DNA of 64,000 nt from positions 2,294,001 through 2,358,000 of the forward strand of contig NZ_CP155552.1 in NCBI RefSeq assembly GCF_036632915.2, in the 5' to 3' direction. The position numbers and the translations under genes are program-made. Source of the stretch: Faecalibacterium taiwanense. Lineage in GTDB: Bacteria > Bacillota > Clostridia > Oscillospirales > Ruminococcaceae. Shown here piece after piece: positions 7,072 through 61,805 of the stretch (its first letter is position 1; each line of letters begins with the position of its first letter). The notes beneath the pieces are model-generated. The model made no database searches. It was not told the origin of the DNA and worked only from the letters and a program-made list of their open reading frames with translations.

Positions 7072-7134
7072 ACTTCTCGCAGCGTGTGCCGACACACAGC
7101 TGCCGCCATAATGGAACCCATGGGATTACAACGT

Positions 7135-7208
<74 letters not shown>

Positions 7209-7215
7209 TCTATGT

Positions 7216-7293
7216 GGTGCCCATAGCGTAGTCGGTTAACGCGCCAGATTGTGGATCTGGAGACCGTGGGTTCGAGTCCCACTGGGCACCCCA
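7216..7293 (+). tRNA. tRNA-His (anticodon GTG)
   Basis: The anticodon arm CCAGATTGTGGATCTGG gives GTG. The acceptor stem has the extra G(-1) opposite C73 that is diagnostic for tRNA-His (G7216 with C7290), and CCA is encoded at 7291-7293. T arm GTGGGTTCGAGTCCCAC. Confidence 0.95.
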
Positions 7294-7368: not shown

Positions 7369-7547
7369 ACGACGACGACCGCGGCCTGCGGCCGAAACAG
7401 GGAGGAGTTGTTGGGGCCGTGTTCTGATTTTTCAAAGCCCTGCCAAGGGGCTGCGGAAAAATCAGCAAACACAACCCGTAAGGCCCTGACCGTCAGATTC
7501 TGCTGCGGGTTCCATCCCTTAGGAATGTCTACCGGGGAACCTTCTGC

Positions 7548-7713: not shown

Positions 7714-9078
7714 TCAGCGCCTCATCTGCTGCAGGATCTGTGCGATCTCTGCGCTGGAATAGCCATCCTGCCGCAGTGCGGTGCTGATGCTGGTATCGCT
7801 CTTGCCCTGGCTGCGCATCAGCATGGCCATGTAGGGTACCGTTACATTCCGGGAGGTGTCACTGCCCAGACGGGTGACAGTGCCCGTGCTGCGGCTGGCT
7901 GTACCGGAGGACGTACTGCCCGTGCCAGTACTGCCAGTCTTACTGCCTGCCGCCGTGCTGCCAGCGCGGCTTGCTTTCTGCGCTGCATTGGACTTTTTCA
8001 GGTTCCACTCGCCCAGTGCGATGTTCAGCTTCTGGCTTGTGACATCGTTGTTGAATTTCTGCTGGTTGAGTTTGTCCTGATACTCCCGCTCGCTCGTCTC
8101 GTTCTCGTAGCGCTGCTGGTTCAGGCTGTCCTGATACTGACGCTCCTGCAGCTTCTGGTTCCACTGAGTGTCCGCACGGTCTGCCTCGTACTGACGGTTG
8201 CCGGAGTAGATGTTGTAGCCGGTATTCAGCAGGCCGCTCAGCATGGAGCCAACGCCCGTGGTGCCGCTGAGAACGATCTGCACCGCATCGCCCAGCACAC
8301 CCAGCACGGTCATCACATTGCTGAACACCTGCTGGCGGCGTGCTGCCTGCTGCTGTTCCTGCGCGGAGTAATAATCGTGCAGGGTGCCCAGCTGGCTCAG
8401 ATAATCCTGATACGCGCCGTAGTCCTGCGCATAGGCGTTGTTGTATGCTTCGCCCTTCTGCTTCAGCTGGGTGTAGTAGTCCGAGAGCTTGTTGTTGTAC
8501 TGCTGCTGGGCATCCTGTTCGCTGTTGTTCAGCTGATCCAGCTGGCTCACCAGCTCGTTGCCGCCGCTTGTATACGTATCCAGTGCCAGACTGTACAGCG
8601 TGGGGATGGCGCTGCTCAGCGCACCGATCTGCTGCTGATACGCCTGCTGGGCGGCGCTCGTGGCATAGCTGGAACCATAACCGCCGGTCAGGGCTGCAGC
8701 CTGCGCCGCAGCATCTGCGCTGGCATTGTGGGCGTTCTGCAAATAGTTCTGCTCGTACTGGCGGTAGAGCGGATCCTTGGTGTAGCTGTACTGGAAGCTC
8801 TCACGCTGCAGCAGCTGGTTCAAAAGCTGGTCGATCCGCTCCTGATAGCTGCTCTGATAATCGCCCGGGCGGTTTGCCTGCCACTCCTTCAGCGCATCTG
8901 CGGCATCCGTCACGGTCTGGCTGGGCTTGTAGCTGGAATTTGCCAGCGCGTTTTCCACCTCCGAGCGGCTGTCCAGTCCTGCCGCCGAATAGCCGCTCTG
9001 CACGGCAGGCTGGCCGCTGCCCTCCGTCTGCGCCTGCACAGCGGCAAGCGCTTCGTCCTTTTTCTTTCTGTTTGCCAT
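7714..9078 (-). CDS. Phage internal/ejection-like protein
   Basis: A 454-aa Gln/Tyr/Ser-rich protein, last gene of the structural module. Residues about 80-250 are long Gln/Tyr-rich helices, a hydrophobic and Gly-rich stretch follows at about 250-285 (VMTVLGVLGDAVQIVLSG, then GVGSMLSGLL), then a heptad-like charged region in which RQYQDSLNQQ and REYQDKLNQQ repeat, a Ser/Thr/Gly linker, and a short C-terminal helical domain. Large helical proteins with a membrane-active segment at this place in short-tailed phage operons are usually internal virion or ejection proteins; tape-measure-like function is the alternative. No family assignment by sequence. Confidence 0.6.
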   Translation of the reverse strand: MANRKKKDEALAAVQAQTEGSGQPAVQSGYSAAGLDSRSEVENALANSSYKPSQTVTDAADALKEWQANRPGDYQSSYQERIDQLLNQLLQRESFQYSYTKDPLYRQYEQNYLQNAHNASADAAAQAAALTGGYGSSYATSAAQQAYQQQIGALSSAIPTLYSLALDTYTSGGNELVSQLDQLNNSEQDAQQQYNNKLSDYYTQLKQKGEAYNNAYAQDYGAYQDYLSQLGTLHDYYSAQEQQQAARRQQVFSNVMTVLGVLGDAVQIVLSGTTGVGSMLSGLLNTGYNIYSGNRQYEADRADTQWNQKLQERQYQDSLNQQRYENETSEREYQDKLNQQKFNNDVTSQKLNIALGEWNLKKSNAAQKASRAGSTAAGSKTGSTGTGSTSSGTASRSTGTVTRLGSDTSRNVTVPYMAMLMRSQGKSDTSISTALRQDGYSSAEIAQILQQMRR

Positions 9079-9092
9079 ATATGATCCTTTCC

Positions 9093-9278
9093 TTATAAAT
9101 TCTGCAGTTTCGTGCGCATCTCGTCGGACATGTTCTCAACGTCCAGATTGCTCAGCACATACTGCAGCTGTTCCTGCATCTGGTACAGGTAGCTGCGCAG
9201 GGCGCGGGCATCCTCCGGGTCCATGTTCTCGCTAAGCTTGGGCAGGCCGATCTTGTTAATGCCCATCACGCTTGCCAT
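9093..9278 (-). CDS. Small phage-module protein
   Basis: A 61-aa acidic helical protein (MDPEDARALRSYLYQMQEQL and following) placed between the nozzle-like and ejection-like genes, with GGGAGG before its ATG and 14-bp spacing to the next gene. No recognised family; a virion connector or chaperone role is only a guess from position. Confidence 0.6.
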   Translation of the reverse strand: MASVMGINKIGLPKLSENMDPEDARALRSYLYQMQEQLQYVLSNLDVENMSDEMRTKLQNL

Positions 9279-9281
9279 TCG

Positions 9282-11165
9282 TCACACCTCCCCGCCTGCA
9301 ATGCCGCCCTTGGCAGCGGCCATTGTTTTTGCAATGCTGCGCAGGGTGATCTGTCCCCTGCCCTTCAGGCGCAGCCGCAGGGTGCCGTGCCTCCGGGGCA
9401 CGAACGGCAAATCAAAGCTGCGCCGCTTGTCCTGTGCCGTCAGGCTTGCCACCGTCTCCCATGGGCCGCCGTCATAGCTGGCGGCCACCTCCACCGTACT
9501 GCTGCACTCGGCATCCAGCCGCAGCGTCAGTCGGGAAAGATATCGGTCCTCGGCCCCGTCCAGCCCAATGTCACCAGTGGTCAGCTCAAAGTTCAGCTTT
9601 TCCTCCACACCGTCGGTGGCCTGCCAGTCCGCTTCACGGCTGGGATCTGCGGCCCACAGTGCCTGCCCGTCCCACAGATAAAGCTGTCCGCCGGTGCTGG
9701 TCATCTCGTAGGAGCACACGTCTTCTTCGCTCCAGAGCGCGCGCTCGGTATCGTACACCAGCAGCCTTGCCGTATTTTCGCCTGCCGCCGTGCGGGCCAC
9801 ATGCAGGTAATAGCGGCCATCCAGCGCACTGCCCACCGCGCTCTGCACATTGGCCAGTCGGCCCGAATCCAACGCGCCGGACACTTTTGTTGGAATGCTG
9901 CCGTCCCATGCCATCACACCGTCCGGCGAAAGATAATAGAGCGTCTCGTTCAGCACACACAGGCTGCGCGCCGCGTTTTTGGCAACGCCCCGGCAGCGCA
10001 GCGAGGTGAGCTGAAAATCCGAAGGCTTGGAGCCATAGAGCTTGTGCAGTGTGTTCTCCTTAAAGAACAGCGCATAGCCCATGCATGTGGCCGCGCCGGT
10101 AAACGCACCATCGCTGCCCACCGTCACTGCGTAGCTGTCTGCCGCAATGCCCCGGTAGGAAAACCAGTTGGTGGGGTCGCCTAAGCGGCAGGCATAGATC
10201 ACGTTTTCCTTGCTGCTGCAGCCCCATACCCGGTTGTCGCACTCGGTAACGTAGTCCAGATCCGGCACGCGGCGTTCCATCCGTACCGGCGTGCTCACCG
10301 CAAAGCTGCGTGTCTCCTTGCCGTCCAAGCTGGTCCACTGGGCGCTCTCGGCGCTCTGCACCAGCGTGCCGTAAACATGATCTCCCTCCGGGCTTACCCG
10401 CACGCGCAGCCCGTTTTCCAGCACATCGTAAACTACCAGATCCCCGTCCAGCTTTGTCCACATGCCAGCCTGCTGTGCTGCCGTGCCCTGCACGGTCACG
10501 GTGTCCCACTGGGCAAATAGCCTCTGCGCGCCCGCCGCTGTGATGCGGCAGTATTCCAGCGGCACTGCCGTCCAGCTGCCGGAGGATGCGCTGTACTCTT
10601 CCAGCGTGCTGGTGCTGGCCCATGGGTGCTCCTCGTCCTCCACCTTCAAAAAGAGCTGTCCGTCTGCAGGCTTCTCCGGTTCCTCCTTGCCGTAACCGCT
10701 CACCTCGTAGGCCTTGCCCGCGGCATCGCAGGGTGCAAACTGCACGCTCTGTCCCTCTGCCTGCCATACAGCTCCCAGTGCCGAAACACTTCCGTCCGCT
10801 GTATCAAAGGCTACCTTGTCCGGGAAGATCAGGATTTTTGTACCAATGCCCACCAGTGCCTTTTTGCCGTCGGTCACTGCCTCGGTGCAGGTCACCGGGT
10901 TCGCGCCGTCGGCATCCGGCGTGTAGATCAGATCCTTCCCGCAGACGGTCAGCAGCCCGTTCAGGTGATACATGCCGTTCAGCCCGGTCAACTCCCTCAG
11001 CTTGCGGCGCGGCTTGCGGGTGCTCAGCGCCGGGAAATCCCGGGCAGAAAAATTCACGCCCGCGCTGTACTCTGCTTCCGAGCAGGCATAGGTCTCGTTC
11101 AGCCCGCCGAATACCCGCACAAGACTGCGGCTGTTCTGCAGCTTCGCTCTGTTTGCCAGAACCAT
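9282..11165 (-). CDS. Phage tail nozzle / stabilisation-like beta-propeller protein
   Basis: A 627-aa beta-rich protein without signal peptide. The N-terminus (NRAKLQNSRSLVRVFGGLNE) and the succession of short strands such as NRVWGCSSKENVIYACRLG, TCMGYALFFKENTLHKLYGS and ETLYYLSPDGVMAWDG match the organisation of short-tailed phage nozzle proteins (T7 gp12 or P22 gp10 type). The C-terminal part (ELTTGDIGLDGAEDRYLSRL, then TVEVAASYDGGPWETVASL) is a beta-sandwich-like region. Position after the adaptor-like gene supports this. Assignment is by organisation and context, not by a specific motif. Confidence 0.65.
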   Translation of the reverse strand: MVLANRAKLQNSRSLVRVFGGLNETYACSEAEYSAGVNFSARDFPALSTRKPRRKLRELTGLNGMYHLNGLLTVCGKDLIYTPDADGANPVTCTEAVTDGKKALVGIGTKILIFPDKVAFDTADGSVSALGAVWQAEGQSVQFAPCDAAGKAYEVSGYGKEEPEKPADGQLFLKVEDEEHPWASTSTLEEYSASSGSWTAVPLEYCRITAAGAQRLFAQWDTVTVQGTAAQQAGMWTKLDGDLVVYDVLENGLRVRVSPEGDHVYGTLVQSAESAQWTSLDGKETRSFAVSTPVRMERRVPDLDYVTECDNRVWGCSSKENVIYACRLGDPTNWFSYRGIAADSYAVTVGSDGAFTGAATCMGYALFFKENTLHKLYGSKPSDFQLTSLRCRGVAKNAARSLCVLNETLYYLSPDGVMAWDGSIPTKVSGALDSGRLANVQSAVGSALDGRYYLHVARTAAGENTARLLVYDTERALWSEEDVCSYEMTSTGGQLYLWDGQALWAADPSREADWQATDGVEEKLNFELTTGDIGLDGAEDRYLSRLTLRLDAECSSTVEVAASYDGGPWETVASLTAQDKRRSFDLPFVPRRHGTLRLRLKGRGQITLRSIAKTMAAAKGGIAGGEV

Positions 11166-11177
11166 GCTCTCACCTCC

Positions 11178-11561
11178 TTACCAGCGCCACTGGGCACCCG
11201 TCAGGGTCGGGTAGCTGCGCCGCAGCCACGCCGCCAGATCTGCCAGCAGACTGTTGTACTGGGCCTGCTCCCCGACGTAGCGGTCGGTCTCACCAAGGGC
11301 CGCATCGGTCATGGCACACAGATAATGCGGATACAGCGCATCAAAAGGTGCCGGTGCCAGCAGCACATCGTCGTCCTGCAGGCTGTCATCCCATGCAAGG
11401 TCTGCGCCCACATCGTCGTATGCATCTGTGATGCTGTTTTTAAAAAAGCGTTCCCGCAGCATCGCGTCTGCTTCTTTCAGCCACGCCTGCCGGGTGGCCA
11501 GCGCAATGCGGCTGCCCGGGCGCAGCTCTTCGGCGCGTTCCAGCGCCTGTCCTACGGTCAT
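11178..11561 (-). CDS. Head-tail adaptor-like phage protein
   Basis: A 127-aa helical protein (MTVGQALERAEELRPGSRIA at the start, LRRSYPTLTGAQWRW at the end). Size, helical character and position between capsid and nozzle genes match gp4/gp11-type adaptors that sit under the portal. CTCCTTTTT upstream of the start (11567-11575) gives a strong ribosome binding site. Confidence 0.6.
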   Translation of the reverse strand: MTVGQALERAEELRPGSRIALATRQAWLKEADAMLRERFFKNSITDAYDDVGADLAWDDSLQDDDVLLAPAPFDALYPHYLCAMTDAALGETDRYVGEQAQYNSLLADLAAWLRRSYPTLTGAQWRW

Positions 11562-11584
11562 ATGCTCACTCTCCTTTTTATAAA

Positions 11585-11621
11585 GGCCCGGCCGGGCAGG
11601 CTTCCCAGCCGGGCTTTTTGT
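11585..11621. terminator. GC-rich hairpin between capsid-accessory and adaptor genes
   Basis: GCCCGGCCGGGCAGGCTTCCCAGCCGGGC followed by TTTTT on the plus strand, only CTTTAT on the minus strand. For the minus-strand operon it is therefore at best a weak attenuator; it would stop antisense transcription. Confidence 0.45.
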
Positions 11622-11632
11622 CTGTTTCGGGT

Positions 11633-11848
11633 TTACTGGGCGGCGTTCTCTGCCGCCGCAATGCGGGCGGCGGTCAGCTCATCCTGCATCTGGCTGTGCT
11701 CCAGCACCTCGGCCACTTCGGGCGGCACTTCCACCTCCACGCCGCGGCGGATCTTATAGTTCACACCGTTCACGCTGACGAACAGATCGCCCTTGTAGCG
11801 GCTGTTATCCTTGAACAGCCGGATGCGCACATTTTTCTTTTCAGCCAT
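11633..11848 (-). CDS. Small capsid-associated phage protein
   Basis: A 71-aa protein, RIRLFKDNSRYKGDLFVSVN then YKIRRGVEVEVPPEVAEVL, placed directly after the major capsid gene. The sequence is typical of the short beta-type proteins that follow major capsid genes in Firmicute phages (capsid decoration or head completion); exact role unknown. Confidence 0.65.
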   Translation of the reverse strand: MAEKKNVRIRLFKDNSRYKGDLFVSVNGVNYKIRRGVEVEVPPEVAEVLEHSQMQDELTAARIAAAENAAQ

Positions 11849-11861
11849 GGTTCACGCCTCC

Positions 11862-12860
11862 TCAGTTTGCAGCAGCGGTGGCGGAATAGCTGGACGCACT
11901 TTCAATGCGCACCATGTACTGCTCCACCAGACGCTCTGCCGCACGCATGCCCTTCCAGCCCACGGAAGCGCGCTGGTTCAGCGGGTCGTCGCCGTAGCCC
12001 AGCTGCTTGACGATGTGCTCCAGACCGCCGCCTTCCAGCTCGGTCACGCCGTAGGCGTGGGCACCCAGCACCAGCGTGCCGAACACAGCCAGACCGTCCG
12101 GGCAGGTGGAATCCTTCCAGATCTTGGCCTCGCTGGTCTCGATGAAGCGGATGTTGCCCAGCTTGCCGATCTCGCCGCGGAACATGGTGTCCGGGTCGGC
12201 GTACTTGTGCACCTCAATGAACTCCTTGCTGGTCTTCAGGTCGTAGGCAGCGTAGGGATGGATGATGGCAATGTAGCTGTCGCCGATGGGGTCGGCGTTC
12301 ATCGCGCCCAGCTGTGCCGCCGCCTGAAAGAACAGCTTCGGGGTCAGGGTGCAGGTCTTGTCCAGTGCCTTGCGGCTGGCAACGGCAGTCTCGGTGCCGC
12401 CTGCGGCCAGCTTGGGCGCATAGATCACATTGGTGCCGCCCGCCAGCACATCGCGGGTAATGCTGTCCATGGTGCGGCCTGCCTGACTTGCCAGCACACG
12501 GGTGGCCTGTACCACATTGTTGTCAATGGCGGTCATCTGCAGCACGTCGGTCAGCGGAGTCCAGCCGCCGTACTGGTGCAGATCGCTGGTGATGGTGGTC
12601 ACATTCAGTGCCTGACCGTTCGGGGTCACGCCCTCGGTCAGCGGAGTGGATGCCTTGGGCAGGCTGTCGTACTTGCGGAACTCAATGGTCTTGCCGCCGT
12701 TCTGGGGCACAGGGTAGTAGTCCGCAAACTGGTCGTGCACCAGACGCGGCTCTGCCTGATCGATGAGACGCTTCTCGTAGAAGGTCTTCATCTCTTTCGA
12801 CATGGTAGCGGTGGTGTTCAGGTTTTCCGCAAACAGCTGGATGTTGAAATTCTTGTTCAT
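11862..12860 (-). CDS. Major capsid protein, N4-gp56 family
   Basis: HK97-fold major capsid protein. The frame opens at 12920, but I place the start at the ATG at 12860, which begins MNKNFNIQLFAENL (MSMN from 12866 is the alternative) and is preceded by GAAAGGAA. The family signature runs through TMSKEMKTFYEKRL, RLVHDQFADYYPVPQNGG, TIEFRKYDSL and YGGWTPLTDVLQMTAIDNN. The N-terminal IQLFA is the recognition motif of Prp protease, so the first residues are probably cleaved during head maturation. About 330 aa, normal for the family. Confidence 0.85.
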   Translation of the reverse strand: MNKNFNIQLFAENLNTTATMSKEMKTFYEKRLIDQAEPRLVHDQFADYYPVPQNGGKTIEFRKYDSLPKASTPLTEGVTPNGQALNVTTITSDLHQYGGWTPLTDVLQMTAIDNNVVQATRVLASQAGRTMDSITRDVLAGGTNVIYAPKLAAGGTETAVASRKALDKTCTLTPKLFFQAAAQLGAMNADPIGDSYIAIIHPYAAYDLKTSKEFIEVHKYADPDTMFRGEIGKLGNIRFIETSEAKIWKDSTCPDGLAVFGTLVLGAHAYGVTELEGGGLEHIVKQLGYGDDPLNQRASVGWKGMRAAERLVEQYMVRIESASSYSATAAAN

Positions 12861-12888
12861 GCTCATATTCCTTTCTCTTGTAAAATAT

Positions 12889-13628
12889 TCACAATTCGAT
12901 CTGTGCCCCGTGGAGCACACGGCGTTCCAGTGCTTCTCGCTGGGCGCGGGTCATGCTGGCTACATCCGGGCGGACGGTAGCCGCGCCGCCGGGCCGGATG
13001 CCGTTTTCGGTGGGCCGTGCGGCCCGCTGCTGAATACGTTCCACCACGCCCTGCTCCACAGCCTGCGCTGCAGTGCGCAGGTTTTCGTCGTAGTGGGCCA
13101 GACGGTACGCATCCCGCACCCTCATGCCGGGCAGCTGCATCAGGCGGCGCATCTCCGGGCTGCGCAGCTCGTTCTGCAGATCAAAATCCGGCTGGCTGCG
13201 GCGCATGGCCGCTTCCTCTGCCGCCCAGCGGGCATGCAGGCTGTGCACAGCAGCCTGTGTGCTGCGGGCAAAGCTGGACAGCGGCGGCAGTTCCGGGCGC
13301 TGCACAGGCAGTTCCTGCCGGGGCTTTTCCGGCTGCAGCTCTACGGTTTTCTCTGCCGAAGCCTGCGGCGCAGCGGGTACTTTTGCTTCGTCCGGCTTCA
13401 TGGTGCCGGAGGCCACCGCCTGCCGGGTCTGCGCTTCGCTCAGGGCAGGGGAGCGGCTTCTCCCTCTGCAAAGAGCTGTAGCATAAAGGTTCCCCACGGG
13501 TTGCGGCTCCCAGCGTCCACTTCGTGCCTTGAGCGGCACTCGTGTTCTGCTGGCCGCTGCCCCAGCCTCGGCTCCCTGTTTCCGCCGCAGGCGGCGGTCG
13601 CCTCCGCTGCAAACAGCTGCAGATCCAT
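12889..13628 (-). pseudogene. Phage scaffold protein, frame broken
   Basis: The C-terminal part (up to about 13480, ALSEAQTRQAVASGTMKPDE to the end) is a Pro/Gln/charged, helical, scaffold-like protein between Prp and the capsid gene. The N-terminal part is in another frame: ATG at 13628 (MDLQLFAAEA), with AAAGGAG before it, reads through a second LQLFA (MLQLFAEGEAAP, around 13480) and stops at 13440. Adding one C to the CCCC run near 13447-13450 joins the frames into about 246 aa. Either a real lesion, a sequencing error or recoding. LQLFA motifs are Prp sites, as in staphylococcal phage scaffolds. Confidence 0.6.
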
Positions 13629-13976
13629 CATGCTCTCCTTTCCTCTGCGGCTCACATCTGCAAAGCGGATATTCTCCGGGTAGCGTTCGGCCATCAGTGC
13701 AAAGCAGGCTTTTGCCAGCTCAAAGGCACCGCGCACCCATTCTTCGCAGGGCGCATCCACGCTCACTGCCAGACGCGGGCCGTCCGGCTCATCAAAGGCT
13801 TCGCTGTGGGCGTTCTCTTCCCCGGCCAGCAGGTACACAAGGCCCTGCATCACGGTGCTGGCTCCTGCACAAACGATGTCCTGCCCGGCAGGCGCATAGC
13901 CTGCATGACCGGCAGCTTCCAGCCGGCAGCTCAGCCCGGCGGGGGTATCCATCTCGCTGTAACAAACTTTCATCAT
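13440..13976 (-). CDS. Prp-family cysteine protease, reading through into scaffold N-terminus
   Basis: Residues 1 to about 110 are a Prp protease: GHAGYAPAGQDIVCAGAS carries the catalytic His and Cys. Prp proteases cut ribosomal protein L27 in Firmicutes and cut phage scaffold and capsid proteins at LQLFA-type sites. ATG at 13976 has AAGGAGG 8 bases upstream. Unusually no stop follows the Prp domain: the frame continues through the scaffold start (13628) to 13440, so a Prp-scaffold leader fusion plus internal initiation is predicted. The position between portal and capsid genes is the normal one for a phage head protease. Confidence 0.75.
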   Translation of the reverse strand: MMKVCYSEMDTPAGLSCRLEAAGHAGYAPAGQDIVCAGASTVMQGLVYLLAGEENAHSEAFDEPDGPRLAVSVDAPCEEWVRGAFELAKACFALMAERYPENIRFADVSRRGKESMMDLQLFAAEATAACGGNREPRLGQRPAEHECRSRHEVDAGSRNPWGTFMLQLFAEGEAAPLP

Positions 13977-13992
13977 AAAATTCACCTCCTTT

Positions 13993-15807
13993 TTAATGGA
14001 TGTTCATGGCACGTGCAGCGGCGGCCACCGGCAGGGCATTGCCAAGGCCCGCCAGCTTTACCGCCTGCCCGTCCTTCTGCGCAGACGCACCGCCTGCACT
14101 GCGGGCCGGTTCGTCAGGCCCGGTGCCCTGCTGGGCGATCACCGCCGCCATCTGTGCCATCTGCTGCTGCATCCTAGCCAGCTGCTGGGCAAGGGTGCCG
14201 TTCTGCCGCACCCTCTGACGCACCTTCTCAATGCCTTCAAAGTCCATCATTTCCAGTGCCGCAAGGGCGGCATCGGCATTTTCAGGCTTGAAAAATCCCA
14301 GCTGATAGCACTCCTTGGCCGTCTCGTTCTGGGAAAGGCGGCTGAAGGTGCTCTTCTTGGCGGCGCTCACCACGATGTCAAAGATCGGCTCCCGGCTGCC
14401 CAGTTCCACGCCGCCCACGCTGCCGCCGGGCACCGCCCGCAGCGCCTGCGCCGAGAAGGGCACGAACCGGCTCTCGCCGCTTTCGCCCACGATACGGAAC
14501 ACCCGCTGCTCGTCGTAGAACTGGCGCATCAGCTCGATGATGAGATAGCACTGCTTTGCAAAAGCACGGTAGGCGCTCTTGAGCATATCGCGGCTGAGTT
14601 TGCTGCCTGCCTCCTGCAAGGCCGCAATGGCGCTGGCTGCGGTCACACCTCCGGCAGTGCCGCCCTGCGTCATGTCCCGGTTGCCGCTGATCTCCTTCAG
14701 CTCTTCAATGCGGCTCTGGCGGTAACTCAGGCTGTTGCCCTGCAGGCCCGCCGTCTGCAGCGGACGGAAACTGTCGTCGTTGAGCCGTCCCACCACATGC
14801 ACGATGTCCCGGCTGAAATCGGCCAGCTCTTCCTCGTTGACCCCTGCCGTGTCGCTGAGCACATACCGCTGCTTTGCACTCAGCAGCACGTTCTCGTCCA
14901 TGGCATGGTTCATCTTATCAATGGCCGTCTGGCAGTCCTTCATCACATCGATGTAGCCAAAGCCCGCCGGGCTGTCCTCCTCCACGAACAGTGGGTCAAA
15001 TACAAAGGGGTACTGTCCGTGGTCATACAGGCCGCTTTCTGCCAGCGCCGGGTCGTTCTGGCTGGCGTACAGCACCACGCCGTTGCAGAACTTGCAGTAG
15101 TGCAGCACCATGCGCCCCGTTTCATCCGGGCGCTTGTAGTACCAGTCCACCACCACGCTCTTGGAGCTGGTGTCCTGCCCTTCATCGTGGATGTACCGGG
15201 GCACGTCCAGCACGCTGGCGGTGTGTCCTGCCAGCTGCGGGTACTGCGCGCACAGCCGGGCCGTGTCCTCAAGGCTCAGGCTGAAAAAGTCCGGCGATGC
15301 CTGAATATCCGCCACGCCCGGCTCCCAGTAGAGCATCAGCAGGTTCACGCTGCGCACCGCAATGTCGCCAATGCCGCCGCGCATTGCAGGGTCCCAGAAG
15401 ATGCCGGTCACGCCGGTGCCCTGTTTGAGCTTGCGCCACCAGCAGTCACTGTACACCTGCTCGTAGTCGGCCTGTTCCAGCACCACCGGCAAAACGCTGG
15501 AAAGTGCCCGTGCGGTGTCCTCGTCATCTGCCTCTCGGGGCAGCACGTTCGGTTCCGGGTAGTTGTCCATGGCATCGGCGTGCTTGTTGGCAATGCTGTT
15601 GAACAGCCACCCGCTGGAAGGCTGAGCCTTGCCGGGCATCATGGGGTTCTGGTAGTTCTTCCAGTGGCCCATGCGGAACCACAGCTCGTTATCCACAATG
15701 CGCTTGTCCAGCGCAGCCTTGCCCGCCTTGTACCGCTGCAAGGTCTGCATGGCCTCGGCCACCTGTGCTTCACCCACGGGCAAAGCTTCGTTCTCGTAAT
15801 CGTCCAT
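13993..15807 (-). CDS. Phage portal protein
   Basis: A 604-aa portal-like protein. The N-terminus (ALDKRIVDNELWFRMGHWKN), SGWLFNSIANKHADAMDNYP, the long helical region EELADFSRDIVHVVGRLNDD, the RQSRIEELKEISGNRDMTQG segment and the Ala-rich GGVTAASAIAALQEAGSKLS are typical of podovirus-type portals of Firmicutes. The C-terminus is a Gln-rich coiled region (RQNGTLAQQLARMQQQMAQM) followed by a Gly/Ala-rich tail. It lies 12 bases after the large terminase gene, as expected in a DNA packaging operon. Confidence 0.82.
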   Translation of the reverse strand: MDDYENEALPVGEAQVAEAMQTLQRYKAGKAALDKRIVDNELWFRMGHWKNYQNPMMPGKAQPSSGWLFNSIANKHADAMDNYPEPNVLPREADDEDTARALSSVLPVVLEQADYEQVYSDCWWRKLKQGTGVTGIFWDPAMRGGIGDIAVRSVNLLMLYWEPGVADIQASPDFFSLSLEDTARLCAQYPQLAGHTASVLDVPRYIHDEGQDTSSKSVVVDWYYKRPDETGRMVLHYCKFCNGVVLYASQNDPALAESGLYDHGQYPFVFDPLFVEEDSPAGFGYIDVMKDCQTAIDKMNHAMDENVLLSAKQRYVLSDTAGVNEEELADFSRDIVHVVGRLNDDSFRPLQTAGLQGNSLSYRQSRIEELKEISGNRDMTQGGTAGGVTAASAIAALQEAGSKLSRDMLKSAYRAFAKQCYLIIELMRQFYDEQRVFRIVGESGESRFVPFSAQALRAVPGGSVGGVELGSREPIFDIVVSAAKKSTFSRLSQNETAKECYQLGFFKPENADAALAALEMMDFEGIEKVRQRVRQNGTLAQQLARMQQQMAQMAAVIAQQGTGPDEPARSAGGASAQKDGQAVKLAGLGNALPVAAAARAMNIH

Positions 15808-15819
15808 TGCGTTTCTCCT

Positions 15820-17307
15820 TTAAATTCTGTAAAATCTTGCCCGCTTGTGCAGGTTCAGCGGGTCGTCGGGCATGGGCGGCGCAGCACAGCGCACCGGCGG
15901 GCTGATAGGGTTCTCCATCAGCACATAGCGGCACTCGTCGTAAATGTGATCCTCCTGCCGGGTGTCGATGTCCTCCACGTTGCTTTCGTCGTACACAAGG
16001 TTCGGGATCGTGCGGATAAAGTGCTTGCAGGTATTGAACACCTGAAACATCGGCCTGCCGTCCGCATCAAAATTCAGCCGGTAGTGGAACTGCATCTTGC
16101 CCGCAAGCCGGGTGTTGTCGCCGGGGGACCAGCGCAGGAAGTTCGGGCTGCGCTCCATCATAGCGGCAATGCTCTCGCCGCGGCTCTCATCAAAGATGGC
16201 CGGATCGGCAATGCCGTGGATCACCCTGCCGCGCAAAAGCGGGTCGTTCTGCTCTGCCTCCCGGATGCGCCGGGCCTGTTCCACCGGGTCGATGCGCAGG
16301 CCCTCGTTCGGCCTGCCGGTGCAGCCGTACAGCTCCTTGATGCGGTACAGCCGCCCCTCCTCGTCCGCTGCGTACCACCCCACCGAGAACGGCTTGGAAA
16401 AGCCAAAGTCGAACCCGCGGTAGAGCTGCCAGTGCTTCGGGATGGTGAACGGTGCGATCACATGGGTCCAGCGCTGGTCTTCGTAGTGGGCCGGGTCGTT
16501 GCGCCATTCGGTAAACACCTGCCCGGAAAAGCTGTCCCAGCTGCCGTAGAGCAGCGCCTGCTTTTCCGCTTCCGGCATACTGGCAAGGCTTGCAAGGTAG
16601 CCGGGGTCGTTTGCCAGCAGGGCGGGGTTATCAAAAATGCTGGAAGGGATGAACACCCGCGCCCGCTGCAGCTTCTGTTCGGTGCCGTCCGGCAGCTTTA
16701 CCGTGTATTCTTCGGTGATAGGCGTGCCGGGCGGTGCAGGCGTGATGAACCGTGCCTTCACCCACCCGTGGCCGATGCCGCCGGGATTGGTGGTGGCCCG
16801 CATGTACACCCGGGTGCCCGGGCCTGTGGGACGGTTGCGGCTCATCATGTAGCTGTACTCTTCCCATTCAAAGTGGGTCAGCTCGTCAAAGCCGATAAAA
16901 TCGAAGGCCTTGCCCTGATAATTGGTACGGTCCTTGGTGTACTGCATGGAGCCAAAGTAAATTTTTGCCCCGCTGGGGAAGTTCCACACATGGGCCGTGG
17001 CGTTGTACTGTGCCTGCGGGAACGCCCTGTGGTAGTACACCTGGCTCTTGTCCACCAGATCAGAAAGCTGCGGGTAGGTCTTGCGCAGGATCAGCGCCCG
17101 GTAGTGTGGAATGTGCACCTGCCGCAGCGCTTCGATCACCAGCGCGTCGCTCTTGCCGCCGCCTGCTGCACCGCCGTACAGCGCTTCCGGTTCCGGGCGG
17201 CTCATAAATTCGGCCTGCCGCGGCTGGGGCCGCCAGACCACCGGCACTCTTGCTTGTACAATGCTCATGGTTCTTCCTCCACCGTCGGCAGCAGCACCAC
17301 GCCGCAC
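15820..17307 (-). CDS. Phage terminase large subunit
   Basis: DNA packaging ATPase and nuclease, 495 aa. The Walker A is GGAAGGGKSDAL near residue 46, Walker B is FIGFDELTHF near 136, and the C-terminal RNase H-like nuclease is marked by YRGFDFGFSKPFSVGWYAAD and by the later DPAIFDESRG. I think translation may begin at the internal MSIVQARVPVVWRPQPRQAE (ATG at about 17268, GGAGGAAGAACC before it), giving about 482 aa; the upstream 13 residues are low-complexity. It would feed DNA through the adjacent portal. Confidence 0.85.
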   Translation of the reverse strand: MRRGAAADGGGRTMSIVQARVPVVWRPQPRQAEFMSRPEPEALYGGAAGGGKSDALVIEALRQVHIPHYRALILRKTYPQLSDLVDKSQVYYHRAFPQAQYNATAHVWNFPSGAKIYFGSMQYTKDRTNYQGKAFDFIGFDELTHFEWEEYSYMMSRNRPTGPGTRVYMRATTNPGGIGHGWVKARFITPAPPGTPITEEYTVKLPDGTEQKLQRARVFIPSSIFDNPALLANDPGYLASLASMPEAEKQALLYGSWDSFSGQVFTEWRNDPAHYEDQRWTHVIAPFTIPKHWQLYRGFDFGFSKPFSVGWYAADEEGRLYRIKELYGCTGRPNEGLRIDPVEQARRIREAEQNDPLLRGRVIHGIADPAIFDESRGESIAAMMERSPNFLRWSPGDNTRLAGKMQFHYRLNFDADGRPMFQVFNTCKHFIRTIPNLVYDESNVEDIDTRQEDHIYDECRYVLMENPISPPVRCAAPPMPDDPLNLHKRARFYRI

Positions 17308-17546
17308 TCCGCTCCTTCTGCCTGTGCCCCCTGATCGTTCAGGGTCTTGGCTACACCGGCCAGATCCTTGAGCACCGCCGTGGCCTCCTTGAGGTCTTTC
17401 ATGGTGCCTGCTTCCGATGCGCCTTCCTTTTTTGCCGCCTTCTGCCGGGCATTCAGTTCCCGCACCTGCTGTGCCAGCAGGGTGCTCAGGGTGTCCGTGG
17501 CTCGGCTCAGGCTGGCCAGCCCTCTGGCCTGTTTTGTCTGCCCCAT
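17265..17546 (-). CDS. Possible small terminase subunit or packaging accessory protein
   Basis: A 93-aa Ala/Lys/Gln-rich helical protein (MGQTKQARGLASLSRATDTL onward) overlapping the start of the terminase gene. Position first in the packaging operon suits a small terminase, but it is short and has no clear HTH. ATG at 17546 has AAAGGAG about 15 bases upstream, so the start is uncertain; a GTG at 17633 opens the frame further upstream. Confidence 0.55.
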   Translation of the reverse strand: MGQTKQARGLASLSRATDTLSTLLAQQVRELNARQKAAKKEGASEAGTMKDLKEATAVLKDLAGVAKTLNDQGAQAEGAECGVVLLPTVEEEP

Positions 17547-17834
17547 GGTGTTGGGTATCAGCTCCTTTCCGCCCTGGTGTGCTGGGCTATGGCAAAAGGA
17601 TACCACTGGTGCTGCTTTCCCAACAGTGTGCACTTTTGCAGGGCCATAGCGTATATTTTAAATTTAAGAATCCGATTCGTATACTTTTGTCCCTTGTAAT
17701 TCATCGCTGTTTCGTATCTTTTCAAAAGCAGTGTTTTTTCTCCATCAAAATTTGTGGCAGACCCGCAGAAAACCTTCAAAGTCATACTCATTTGCGATTT
17801 TTGGACAGAAAATGAAAAAAGTGTGTTTATTCTG

Positions 17835-17927: not shown

Positions 17928-19298
17928 ATGTTAGAAAACATCTTTCATCTGAAGGAGAACCACACCGATGTCAAGACCGAGATCATGGCAGGTATCACCA
18001 CCTTCATGACCATGGCTTACATCCTTGCGGTCAATCCCAACATCCTTTCTGCTTCCGGCATGGATTCGGAAGCCGTTCTGATCGCCACCGCGCTGGCATC
18101 CTTTGTTGGCACTGCGCTTATGGCTCTGCTTGCCAACTATCCGTTTGCACTGGCACCCGGCATGGGCCTGAACGCCTACTTCTCCTACACGGTCGTTCTC
18201 ACCATGGGCTACAGCTGGCAGTTGGCCCTGATGGCCGTCTTTGTAGAGGGCATCATCTTCATCGTGCTGTCCCTCACCAATGTCCGTGAGGGCATCTTCA
18301 ATGCCATCCCCATGACCCTGAAGAGCGCCGTCAGCGTGGGCATCGGCCTGTTCGTTGCTTTCGTTGGCCTGCAGAATGCAAAGCTGATCGTCAACAGCGA
18401 TTCCACCCTCGTCACCTACCAGCACTTCAAGGGCGAGACCTTCTCCAGCGTGGGCATGGGCGCGATCCTTGCCCTGTTGGGTATCGTGATCACCGCCATC
18501 CTGCTGGTAAAGAAGGTCAAGGGCGGCATCCTGTACGGCATTCTTATCACCTGGGTGCTGGGCATCCTCTGCGAGATCGCCGGCATCTATGTTCCCAACC
18601 CCGACGCAGGCATGTACTCCGTCATTCCCACCGCTTTTGTCAGCTTCGACTTCTCCGCGCTGGGCAAGACCTTCGGTCAGGTATTCAAGACCGATTTCTC
18701 CGGCGTTGGCATCCTGAACTTCTTCGCCGTCATGTTCTCCTTCCTGTTCGTTGACCTGTTCGATACTCTGGGCACCCTGATCGGTGTTGCCTCCAAGGCC
18801 GACATGCTGGACGAGGACGGCAAGCTGCCCCACATCAAGGGCGCACTGATGGCCGACTCCATCGCCACCTGCGCAGGCGCTGTGCTGGGCACTTCCACCA
18901 CCACCACCTTCGTCGAGAGTGCTTCCGGCGTTACCGAGGGCGGCCGCACCGGTCTGACCGCTATGACCACCGGCATCCTGTTCCTGCTGGCCACCATCTT
19001 CAGCCCTCTGTTCCTCACCATCCCGTCCTTTGCAACGGCTCCGGCCCTGATTATCGTGGGCTTCTACATGATGGGCTCTGCCGTCAAGATCGACTTCAAT
19101 GACCCCAGCGAGGGCATCCCCGCCTTCCTGACCATTCTGGCCATGCCCACCGCTTACAGCATTTCCGAGGGCATCGCCATCGGCGTGATTTCCTGGACCC
19201 TGATCAATCTAGTCACCGGCAAGGCCAAGGAAAAGAAGATCAGCCCCCTGATGTATGTGCTGACCGTGCTGTTCATCCTCAAGTACGTGTTCCTCTAA
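17928..19298 (+). CDS. NCS2-family purine permease (PbuG/AzgA type)
   Basis: A 456-aa membrane transporter with about 13 membrane segments. Family marks include TEIMAGITTFMTMAYILAVN at the start, APGMGLNAYFSYTVV near 80, LFVDLFDTLGTLIGVA near 265 and the GTSTTTTFVESASGV loop near 325. The sequence is of the guanine/hypoxanthine/adenine proton symporter branch rather than uracil or xanthine branches. ATG has AGGAGG at 8 bases. Monocistronic with its own terminator. Confidence 0.92.
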   Translation: MLENIFHLKENHTDVKTEIMAGITTFMTMAYILAVNPNILSASGMDSEAVLIATALASFVGTALMALLANYPFALAPGMGLNAYFSYTVVLTMGYSWQLALMAVFVEGIIFIVLSLTNVREGIFNAIPMTLKSAVSVGIGLFVAFVGLQNAKLIVNSDSTLVTYQHFKGETFSSVGMGAILALLGIVITAILLVKKVKGGILYGILITWVLGILCEIAGIYVPNPDAGMYSVIPTAFVSFDFSALGKTFGQVFKTDFSGVGILNFFAVMFSFLFVDLFDTLGTLIGVASKADMLDEDGKLPHIKGALMADSIATCAGAVLGTSTTTTFVESASGVTEGGRTGLTAMTTGILFLLATIFSPLFLTIPSFATAPALIIVGFYMMGSAVKIDFNDPSEGIPAFLTILAMPTAYSISEGIAIGVISWTLINLVTGKAKEKKISPLMYVLTVLFILKYVFL

Positions 19299-49283: not shown

Positions 49284-50438
<1,155 letters not shown>

Positions 50439-50556: not shown

Positions 50557-50656
50557 CTCTTATCTCTCGGTTTCCCGCAGGATTTGGCACCTTGCGCTCA
50601 CGCGCAGGTTGTCGGGCTTCACAGGGCCTATCCCCTCAGCCGCTCTTGATAAGTCG
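50557..50656 (-). ncRNA. SAM-I (S-box) riboswitch aptamer
   Basis: Read on the minus strand: CTTATCAAGAGCGGCTGAGG at the start, GGGATAGGCCCTGTGAAGCC, CGGCAACC-type segment (CGACAACCTGC), AAGGTGCCAAATCCTGC, then GAGATAAGAG closing stem P1. These are the conserved S-box blocks in the right order. Confidence 0.95.
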
Positions 50657-61046: not shown

Positions 61047-61805
61047 ATGGAGCAGATCAAAAAGTTTTTGCGCAGCAGGGGCTTTACACTGGCACTGCTG
61101 GCCTGTCTCGTCGCAGCCGCAGCGGCGGGCGTGTGGGCAGTGCGCACCGTGCGGGATGAACTGAAAAAGAGCTACGACGACCTGACGACCCCGCAGGAAG
61201 AACCTGCACCGGAGCCGCAGCTCACCCTTGACCCACAGGAGGACGATGTATGGCAGCAGCCCGTGACCGACGCCGCAGAATCTGCGGCAAATGTACCCAA
61301 GCCCGCATCCTCTGCGTCCTCTTCTGGGGCGCAGTCTGGCTCTGGTTTGGTGCACGAACCCTCCGCACTGCAGGGCGCATCCTCGCCTGCCAGCAGTTCA
61401 GCTGCGCCTGCCTCCACGCAGCCCGTCTCGGGCAAGGTCTTGAACGCCTACAGCGGCGATGAGCTGGTGTACAGCAGCACCCTTGGCGACTGGCGCACCC
61501 ACAACGGTGTGGACTACGCCTGTGCGCAGGATGCACAGGTGTGTGCTCCCGCCGCCGGTAAGGTGACCGCCGTGGACACCGATAGCCGCTGGGGCAGTGT
61601 GGTGTGCATCGAGGACAGCGCCGGGCACCTGTGGCGGGTGTGCGGCACTGCCGACCCCACGGTGCAGACCGGCGATGAAGTGAGTGTGGGTCAGATACTT
61701 GGCCGTGCAGGCAGCATTCCCAACGAATGCGCCGAGGAGACGCATATCCATCTGGAAGTACTGCAGGGTGAGCAGTATCTTGACCCGGCAAAGCTGCTGA
61801 ACTGA
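61047..61805 (+). CDS. M23 peptidase-like membrane protein (SpoIIQ-like)
   Basis: 252 aa: one N-terminal membrane helix (about 15-37), a Pro/Ser/Ala-rich stalk (70-130), and a C-terminal LytM domain from about 145. VYSSTLGDWRTHNGVDYACA keeps His and Asp of the first zinc motif and ETHIHLEVLQG keeps the HxH motif; the arrangement DELVYSSTLGDWRTHNGVD is very like SpoIIQ of spore formers. Faces the cell wall. GGGAG is 8 bases before ATG 61047. Confidence 0.83.
   Translation: MEQIKKFLRSRGFTLALLACLVAAAAAGVWAVRTVRDELKKSYDDLTTPQEEPAPEPQLTLDPQEDDVWQQPVTDAAESAANVPKPASSASSSGAQSGSGLVHEPSALQGASSPASSSAAPASTQPVSGKVLNAYSGDELVYSSTLGDWRTHNGVDYACAQDAQVCAPAAGKVTAVDTDSRWGSVVCIEDSAGHLWRVCGTADPTVQTGDEVSVGQILGRAGSIPNECAEETHIHLEVLQGEQYLDPAKLLN

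Follow-up and report, generated by a model that had tools for sequence, protein, structure and literature searches.

Relationship to described gene transfer agents

The gene transfer agent of Rhodobacter, RcGTA, is a domesticated phage head cluster that is inherited vertically, has its release genes at other loci and shows a raised G+C content. It provides a first point of reference for a module of phage-type structural genes, termed here operon I, which lies on the minus strand at positions 7714-17546 of a 64,000-nucleotide stretch of Faecalibacterium taiwanense DNA (the window). The two are alike in the respects just listed, while the tail of RcGTA is siphovirus-like and its protease is of a kind of its own; operon I encodes a P22-type portal and a Prp protease. 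The closest described system is one already published for the genus, the Faecalibacterium gene transfer agent FpGTA (Borodovich et al., January 2026, PMC12946183). According to the portions of that article available to us, a ten-open-reading-frame (ORF), 10.5-kb operon, FpGTA I, was found in all 12 Faecalibacterium genomes examined; other strains yielded particles of ~40 nm with packaged host DNA fragments of 8.4-8.9 kb, and the particle proteome was dominated by operon products, including capsid and portal. The same portions describe a second operon of 5.5 kb with fibre, holin and endolysin genes, FpGTA II, detected in 5 of 12 strains and undetected in 7, for which the authors left undecided whether it had been lost or existed in a divergent version. 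A full-text literature search for the name “FpGTA” returned this article only.

Comparison with the published system identifies the module at 7714-17546 as FpGTA I, which encodes the head, portal, packaging and short-tail proteins of that gene transfer agent, with a probability of roughly 93%. As far as the available text allows comparison, the two share genus, gene set and size, a putative terminase small subunit (TerS) with no recognised DNA-binding domain, a terminase large subunit (TerL), portal, scaffold, major capsid protein (MCP), short-tail proteins and a separate fibre-holin-endolysin locus. The F. taiwanense genome has both the ~10-kb TerS-TerL-portal-scaffold-MCP-short-tail operon and the second fibre/lysis locus; operon I measures 9.8 kb here against the published packaged length of 8.4-8.9 kb (PMC12946183). 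The difference lies in FpGTA II, reported for 5 of 12 strains, whereas lysis genes occupy a fixed second site in 21 of the 21 genomes examined here. Features expected of a gene transfer agent are present, namely purifying selection with intact genes (except for a split Prp-scaffold gene), vertical inheritance, and no recognised linked integrase or replication gene. Among the options listed in an earlier note on this DNA, that of a domesticated particle of the gene-transfer-agent kind is thus the supported one, and it has been published with particles, proteomics and packaged DNA (PMC12946183). Relative to the accessible portions of that article, the present analysis adds the second locus in all examined genomes, a promoter-like element shared by both loci, a tree congruent with that of the host, the Prp-scaffold fusion, a sister prophage and one-locus relatives.

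Gene content of operon I

ORF calling and gene calls place 11 tightly packed minus-strand ORFs between 7714 and 17546. The earlier note had counted ten consecutive genes, which holds if Prp and scaffold are taken as one gene; as ORFs there are 11, the result of a frameshift split. Its assignment of packaging, head, connector and ejection-like functions to this strand was borne out by PHROG and Pfam matches, the adaptor and ejection roles being suggested by position. The putative TerS (93 residues; 17265-17546) carries the C-terminal tail GVVLLP. TerL (15820-17307, likely start near 17247) matches phrog_979 (1.4e-61) and contains the sequence GGAAGGGKS, which we take to be its Walker A motif; Asp-300, Asp-368 and Asp-457 are invariant columns in an alignment of six relatives, and the two in-frame TGA codons listed for TerL, in genomes G024 and G019, are upstream of the conserved start. 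The portal protein (13993-15807) matches phrog_156 (4.4e-79) and PF16510 (P22_portal; 1.6e-34). It is followed by the Prp cysteine protease part of the Prp-scaffold gene (13440-13985; PF04327, 2.1e-11), whose ORF ends early here, and by the scaffold part (12889-13539; phrog_13908, a family of unknown function, 1.3e-19), which comparison of frames with genome G028 and contig MT836324 places in a shifted frame in this strain.

The MCP (11862-12866) matches phrog_1357 (2e-85) and PF25209 (8.6e-12) and displays an N-terminal Prp-type site, FNIQLFA. Next are a small head protein of 71 residues (11633-11848; phrog_15239, unknown function, 9.1e-23) and a head-tail adaptor-like protein of 127 residues (11178-11561; phrog_12105, a family of unknown function, 1.8e-17), a role suggested by position. 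The 627-residue tail nozzle or internal virion-like protein (9282-11165; phrog_511, 2.5e-47) retains the name “nozzle” of the earlier note for a predicted role. A small conserved protein of 61 residues (9093-9278; median ratio of nonsynonymous to synonymous substitution rates, dN/dS, 0.225) separates it from the 454-residue putative ejection-like or internal virion protein (7714-9078), whose function is likewise proposed from position, the PHROG/Pfam scan having given no PHROG match and no convincing family match. The ejection gene is a complete ORF in 26 of the 27 loci with a match, with the best alignment reaching at least 80% coverage in only 16 of them.

Prp-scaffold fusion and its split in this strain

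Prp and scaffold form a single fused ORF in most relatives, comprising 306-324 residues in 20 of 24 complete copies and at least 310 codons from stop to stop in 24 of 28 loci; fusion was counted by ORF length, as a text pattern for the fused scaffold caught just 14 of the 24 long ORFs. A separate Prp, 145-151 codons long, was found in each of the three deep species examined. All 25 capsid N-terminal sequences listed, among which two are prophage copies, have an LQLFA-type site, as do 22 of 24 Prp-scaffold junctions. These sites resemble the Prp cleavage motif used on capsid and scaffold in phage 80alpha, as given in the available part of the source (PMC9405229).

The ORF in the window is broken by a frameshift that adjoins an insert of ~120 bp absent from a conspecific genome. 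In the virus-like particle (VLP) contig MT836324, which is 99% identical, the insert is present and the frame is open. This strain may be a non-producer through the split, or the frameshift may be a sequencing error. A 42-bp stretch within the insert (13559-13600) is 83% identical, in inverted orientation, to intergenic positions 7376-7417 near the tRNA genes, a match that suggests a small dispersed repeat element.

A second locus with lysis genes

A search with holin alignment A2, which also picks up prophage holins (L327, L337), found homologues in 26 of the 31 genus genomes, including one at 2873097-2873330 of contig C1 in F. taiwanense itself (G000); G006, G019, G020, G021 and G027 gave no match. 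The second locus of F. taiwanense (G000:C1:2870469-2873336) lies ~559 kb from operon I and encodes a fibre-like protein with a Gp10_C domain, a 130-residue protein, an M15 endolysin, a 75-residue protein and an SPP1-type holin. Lysis genes, which the earlier note had missed in the window, are present elsewhere in the genome. In the F. prausnitzii clade the holin is beside the same G5 and glgB-like genes in 14 of 14 genomes examined, with lepA, alr or rplM-rpsI genes also within the fetched stretch in 10 of the 14; 12 of the 14 have a recognised endolysin gene and 11 a recognised fibre gene. In a second clade, endolysin and holin lie between MATE and LysR genes in 7 of 7 genomes, with no recognised fibre gene, the names of flanking and lysis genes having been checked on one locus each. 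Together these are the 21 genomes counted, the holin-positive G010, G011, G023, G025 and G026 being outside the count.

The second locus is very probably FpGTA II, because in APC923/51-1 (G009) and ATCC 27768 (G014), both listed as positive in the published work, it occupies the same site. Two F. hattorii strains that are not among the published positives, APC922/41-1 (G008) and APC923/61-1 (G016), have just an endolysin and a holin there. The endolysin at the second locus is of type M15 or GH25, a variation that may be the reason why clustering did not detect the locus.

Other queries were less informative for this purpose. Holin family PF05105 gave 0 of 1 in the F. taiwanense genome, a prophage holin query matched 3 of 31 genomes, with F. 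taiwanense not among them, and the phrog_372 fibre matched 4 of 31. Three endolysin queries were rejected as guides to the second locus: GH25 (13 of 13 matched, the F. taiwanense match being among cellular genes), Amidase_2 (2 of 13, the F. taiwanense match being in another prophage) and Amidase_3 (13 of 13, the three short loci inspected having it next to a mutS2-like gene). The searches also brought up a separate prophage in the F. taiwanense genome (L281; G000:C1:636001-656000), with tail-like genes identified by eye and an Amidase_2 endolysin, and a phage-like cluster of tail, GH25 and holin genes beside a mutS2-like gene in G015 (L290; G015:C1:1556001-1576000), which is distinct from the second locus.

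Promoter-like element common to both loci

Alignments of the regions upstream of operon I reveal a conserved AAAAGTRYRYACTG located 21 bp before TATCCT. In the window a matrix scan places this promoter-like element on the minus strand at 17597-17637, with AAAAGTGCACACTG (17637-17624), 21 bp, and TATCCT (17602-17597); this is the only match of at least 10 bits in the 64 kb with TAnnnT 19-25 bp downstream, for a matrix that included the site itself. The element common to both loci can be written as AAAAGTRYRYACTG, 21 bp, TAnnnT. When the matrix was derived solely from 15 sites of operon I and combined with a TAnnnT hexamer 20-22 bp downstream, it matched 11 of 14 upstream regions of the second locus at thresholds of 4, 6 and 8 bits, falling to 7 of 14 at 10 bits; these counts are not independent events, since the species are related. 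At 8 bits, 0.004 matches were expected and 1 was found in 482 kb of background on both strands. Exact 8-10-mers common to both upstream regions were uninformative. In the second clade a candidate is located just 5' of the endolysin gene in 4 of 7 loci (20.6, 11.3, 7.2 and 6.0 bits). The element is also present in 4 of the 6 virome/VLP contigs with enough upstream DNA, one of which, L002, is nearly identical to the window.

Conservation, selection and inheritance with the host

TerL is present in 31 of 31 genus genomes; the other 30 are at 76-99% identity, one of them a fragment, and most genomes have one full-length copy. Genes were compared across 33 loci, two of which are prophage copies. 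The best alignments of the gene copies contained no internal stop; copies truncated at a contig end or lacking a start (for TerL, 6 of 33) had been set aside. Alignment coverage of at least 80% was reached by TerL in 32 of 33 copies, portal in 31 of 32, MCP in 27 of 29 and both adaptor and nozzle in 27 of 27, and by Prp in only 12 of 29 and the ejection gene in only 16 of 27. The intact frames that the earlier note described for terminase, portal, capsid and nozzle thus extend across the genus alignments, the exception in the operon being the split Prp-scaffold gene of this strain. Median pairwise dN/dS by gene, calculated from pairs with dS of 0.02-1, ranges from 0.128 to 0.470: small head protein 0.128, TerL 0.153, MCP 0.181, portal 0.241, nozzle 0.369, ejection protein 0.432 and TerS 0.470, compared with 0.098 for rpoB. 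Relaxed selection on terminase and capsid genes, a possibility that the earlier note had proposed to check in this way, was not found, the medians being far below 1 for every gene.

These values bear on what the particle does last. The FpGTA I particle might be PBSX- or tailocin-like, packaging host DNA without delivering it, an alternative that concerns the last step only and is compatible with the identity of the module as FpGTA I. Several species have variable fibre genes or none that was recognised, and the FpGTA authors, in the text available, say that delivery remains to be determined (PMC12946183). Against this, the nozzle and ejection-like proteins are under purifying selection, and a particle that does not deliver its DNA is considered unlikely, albeit the strongest of the alternatives.

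A tree of six concatenated operon proteins was compared with an rpoB tree for 23 of the 31 genomes; G004 and G023, whose rpoB was not usable, were excluded, as were six genomes in which the operon is truncated and both prophage copies. The trees have 18 of 20 splits in common, including all those with support of at least 95 (9 in the rpoB tree and 13 in the operon tree), while 500 label shuffles gave at most 3 common splits. By this phylogenetic comparison the operon is inherited vertically with its host. The earlier note had suggested a search for the same tRNA-His locus in other genomes, and a tRNA-Arg/His pair does adjoin the operon in 13 of 14 F. prausnitzii-clade loci. The flank opposite the tRNA pair has been rearranged several times among relatives.

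Conservation of this kind is difficult to reconcile with a decayed prophage, that is, a structural block left over after the other phage genes were deleted. Such decay would accord with the lack of recognised integrase or replication genes nearby, with the Prp-scaffold split in this strain and with the existence of apparently complete related prophages. It is contradicted by the genus-wide conservation, the dN/dS medians well below 1, the intact aligned genes and the rpoB-like tree, as well as by the second locus and the common promoter-like element, so that this option of the earlier note is now very improbable.

Related prophages and one-locus elements

Apparently complete prophages of 38-39 kb, extending from integrase to lysis genes, were identified in APC923/61-1 (G016:C8, about 173-211 kb; loci L208, L056, L209) and CNCM I-4541 (G012:C11, about 591-631 kb; loci L210, L055, L211), in each case beside an ordinary FpGTA I. 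The G016 prophage contains, by family, an integrase, an excisionase-like gene, a repressor, a replication initiator, fibres, a holin and an M15 endolysin; the gene content of the G012 prophage was recognised by similarity to it. Both resemble FpGTA I in TerL (77-78% identity), MCP (67-70%), portal and Prp-scaffold fusion, and the small head, adaptor, nozzle and 61-residue genes are also in the same order. They differ in having an integrase, an excisionase-like gene, a replication initiator, a 233-236-residue helix-turn-helix (HTH) protein at the TerS position and a protein of 3306-3610 residues. By the earlier note, a complete prophage in related strains with this module as one contiguous part would have refuted its reading; two genomes of the genus do have an apparently complete prophage with the same gene set, where it forms a separate and divergent locus alongside FpGTA I. 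No match of at least 7 bits to the promoter-like element was found before the terS-position gene of either prophage, and a match precedes the fibre-lysis cassette of the G012 prophage. A 42-taxon tree places the prophages as sister to the main FpGTA I clade (support 96), within a Faecalibacterium group (99) and with the four deep species outside. The hallmarks of a temperate prophage, integrase, repressor and replication genes beside the structural block, were not recognised in the gene calls of the window or among the PHROG families listed for it.

The presence of related prophages, together with a size of about 10 kb and a content of structural genes only, would also suit a phage satellite that relies on a helper for replication and lysis. 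Satellites normally borrow capsid, portal and TerL. Operon I, instead of depending on a helper capsid, encodes its own capsid, portal, TerL and scaffold; no integrase, repressor or replication gene was recognised in the window, inheritance is vertical and the lysis genes are at a fixed second site. This option, also raised in the earlier note, has next to no probability left.

Loci that combine head genes with fibre genes were found inside and outside the genus. Among the deep Faecalibacterium species, L218 (G020) has fibre, GH25, small protein and phage holin genes in the same locus as the head genes, and L060 (G027) has head genes, fibre and GH25 up to the end of the stretch. In G021 (L059) a fibre gene is in the operon and a trigger-factor-like gene follows directly after the ejection gene, with no lysis genes there, an arrangement that counts against a simple one-locus rule for the deep species; G019 is too fragmentary to judge. 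Outside the genus, VLP contig MT835662.1 carries the whole set as one locus followed by cellular genes, and is related at about 94-97% DNA identity to genome G161 of a genus designated g16 (contigs titled Ruminiclostridium sp.). The g16 elements share with FpGTA I a TerL of about 65-70% identity, the gene order and cellular genes outside, and differ in having fibre, holin and GH25 endolysin in the same locus, an HTH-bearing TerS and divergent XRE and M78-type genes. The small M78-type gene and the XRE gene are divergent from terS in 9 of 9 loci (L094, L097, L098, L100, L106, L107, L114, L116 and L212; upstream, at about 8.2-9.1 kb), one protein of each having been scanned singly; the pair is presumably ImmR/ImmA-like. 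An XRE gene divergent from the terS position is also found in deep Faecalibacterium (L057, L058, L060). No integrase was seen among the 25 of 63 Pfam families listed for 52 upstream proteins of seven g16 loci, and a search with the MT835662 fibre returned many relatives and no hosts. The g16 elements are not claimed to be gene transfer agents, as their TerL occurs in 12 of 60 genus genomes, their TerS carries an HTH and an integrase farther out is possible.

The TerS proteins differ in their architecture. In Faecalibacterium the scan of PHROGs and Pfam gave weak matches only and no HTH family, and the GVVLLP-type C-terminal tail, a pattern picked by eye, is present in 30 of 30 genus copies. 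The g16 TerS has a G-V-V-x-L-P-type tail in 9 of 9 copies and an HTH in the one scanned, while the prophage proteins at the TerS position have an HTH-like part and the tail in 0 of 2. The FpGTA TerS tail aligned with HTH-bearing TerS over 18 columns only (hhalign probability 64.6), and homology to the prophage TerS-position proteins was not significant (2.7 bits; hhalign probability 0.1). Loss of the DNA-recognition part of TerS would fit as the step that made packaging unspecific, on an alignment covering those 18 columns.

Taken together, FpGTA can tentatively be viewed as a two-part, co-regulated gene transfer agent with a dedicated common promoter that derives from a one-locus ancestor with an HTH-bearing TerS under XRE/M78 control, an element type that persists in related Ruminococcaceae. 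The DNA-recognition domain would have been lost no later than the base of the genus. Fibre and lysis genes would subsequently have moved to the second site, and a temperate phage lineage of the same genus would share the head genes by exchange. This origin falls short of even odds; the one-locus form was found in only 2 of 4 deep species, and an integrase may lie near the g16 elements.

Virome records

Among GenBank “phage” records the nearest, MT836324.1, is a linear piece that resembles chromosomal DNA and extends into the permease. FpGTA-type operons are found in five “Bacteriophage sp.” GenBank records from Mexican faecal samples (MT836324.1, MT838161.1, MT838973.1, MT836159.1 and MT835662.1; L002-L006), four of which, all except MT838973.1, show flanks recognisable as bacterial. 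Relatives are encoded by 355 IMG/VR contigs, of which the best 80 were kept. Among these 80, the 6 contigs with a TerL identity of at least 82% measure 9.4-13.1 kb and 6 of 9 at 74-79% exceed 27 kb, a length contrast to which contig trimming could contribute. Short high-identity contigs are as expected if the main-clade operon is not part of a larger phage genome. An actively moving short-tailed phage or plasmid-like element, present in all strains by chance, could account for the related head genes in VLP contigs and in the prophage clade, but with the operon tree congruent with rpoB and the 6 contigs of at least 82% TerL identity among the best 80 not exceeding 13.1 kb, it has hardly any probability.

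Surroundings of the operon

As the earlier note had stated, the edges of the operon are tRNA genes and a permease. ARAGORN places tRNA-Arg(TCT) and tRNA-His(GTG) at the downstream edge (7134-7293, plus strand), and gene calls place the permease upstream (17928-19298). By eye, the other gene calls in the window appear to be cellular. No integrase, terminase or replication family is among the 25 of 31 PHROG families listed for 50 of the non-operon gene calls (1e-10), in keeping with the earlier description of a module without linked integration or replication genes. The PHROG name “endolysin” in the window belongs to an isolated peptidase gene (61047-61805), and the name “tail protein” (phrog_27398) was not traced to its source gene. 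The G+C content did not prove host-like as had been claimed: it is 61.9% in the operon versus 57.7% outside it, and beyond 17927 none of 73 overlapping segments matched to the operon in length is above 59.3%. Alphaproteobacterial gene transfer agents are raised in G+C content in the same direction. A SAM riboswitch (RF00162; 69.6 bits) was also found at 50557-50655, just 5' of a gene (49284-50438) that by eye resembles metK.

Proposed mechanism and points of caution

In the mechanism that we propose, one putative regulator would switch on both loci, and the capsid protein would assemble on a scaffold made as a Prp-scaffold fusion. Prp would cleave both the capsid N-terminus and the junction between Prp and scaffold at their LQLFA-type sites. 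TerS, with its conserved C-terminal tail and apparently without a DNA-recognition domain, would guide TerL, such that heads are filled with arbitrary host DNA, and the endolysin and holin of the second locus would release the particles.

Several observations weigh against this explanation of the module. A clear promoter match is lacking in 3 of 14 second-locus regions (G009, G018, G029) and in 3 of 7 of the second clade, and the spacing and hexamer (-10) pattern were fixed after both operons had been seen. A fibre gene was unrecognised in 3 of 14 and 7 of 7 genomes, and an endolysin in 2 of 14. The Prp-scaffold ORF is split in this genome, and the stop test is blind to frameshifts, having passed even this split. 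Single pairs exceed a dN/dS of 1 for TerS, Prp, scaffold, the 61-residue gene and the ejection gene (maxima 1.03-1.22). The tRNA-Arg/His edge occurs in 0 of 13 loci scanned from other clades. VLP contigs that combine operon and host flanks could be host-DNA contamination. The sister position of the prophages in the tree would imply either that a phage took head genes from the FpGTA lineage or that domestication was not a single event. For this strain, random packaging and transfer of DNA are predicted.

Implications

The lysis genes at fixed sites in all 21 genomes examined favour a divergent second operon rather than its loss in strains where none had been detected, and with the promoter-like element one can look for the regulator and for further members of the regulon. 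Through the one-locus relatives and the sister prophage, the route by which a phage turns into a gene transfer agent can be tested in a Gram-positive lineage; if the stepwise origin is true, it would amount to a record of a short-tailed phage becoming a gene transfer agent. Faecalibacterium ranks among the most common genera of the human gut, and a heritable particle that packages DNA, if present in all its species, would constitute a standing route of gene flow.

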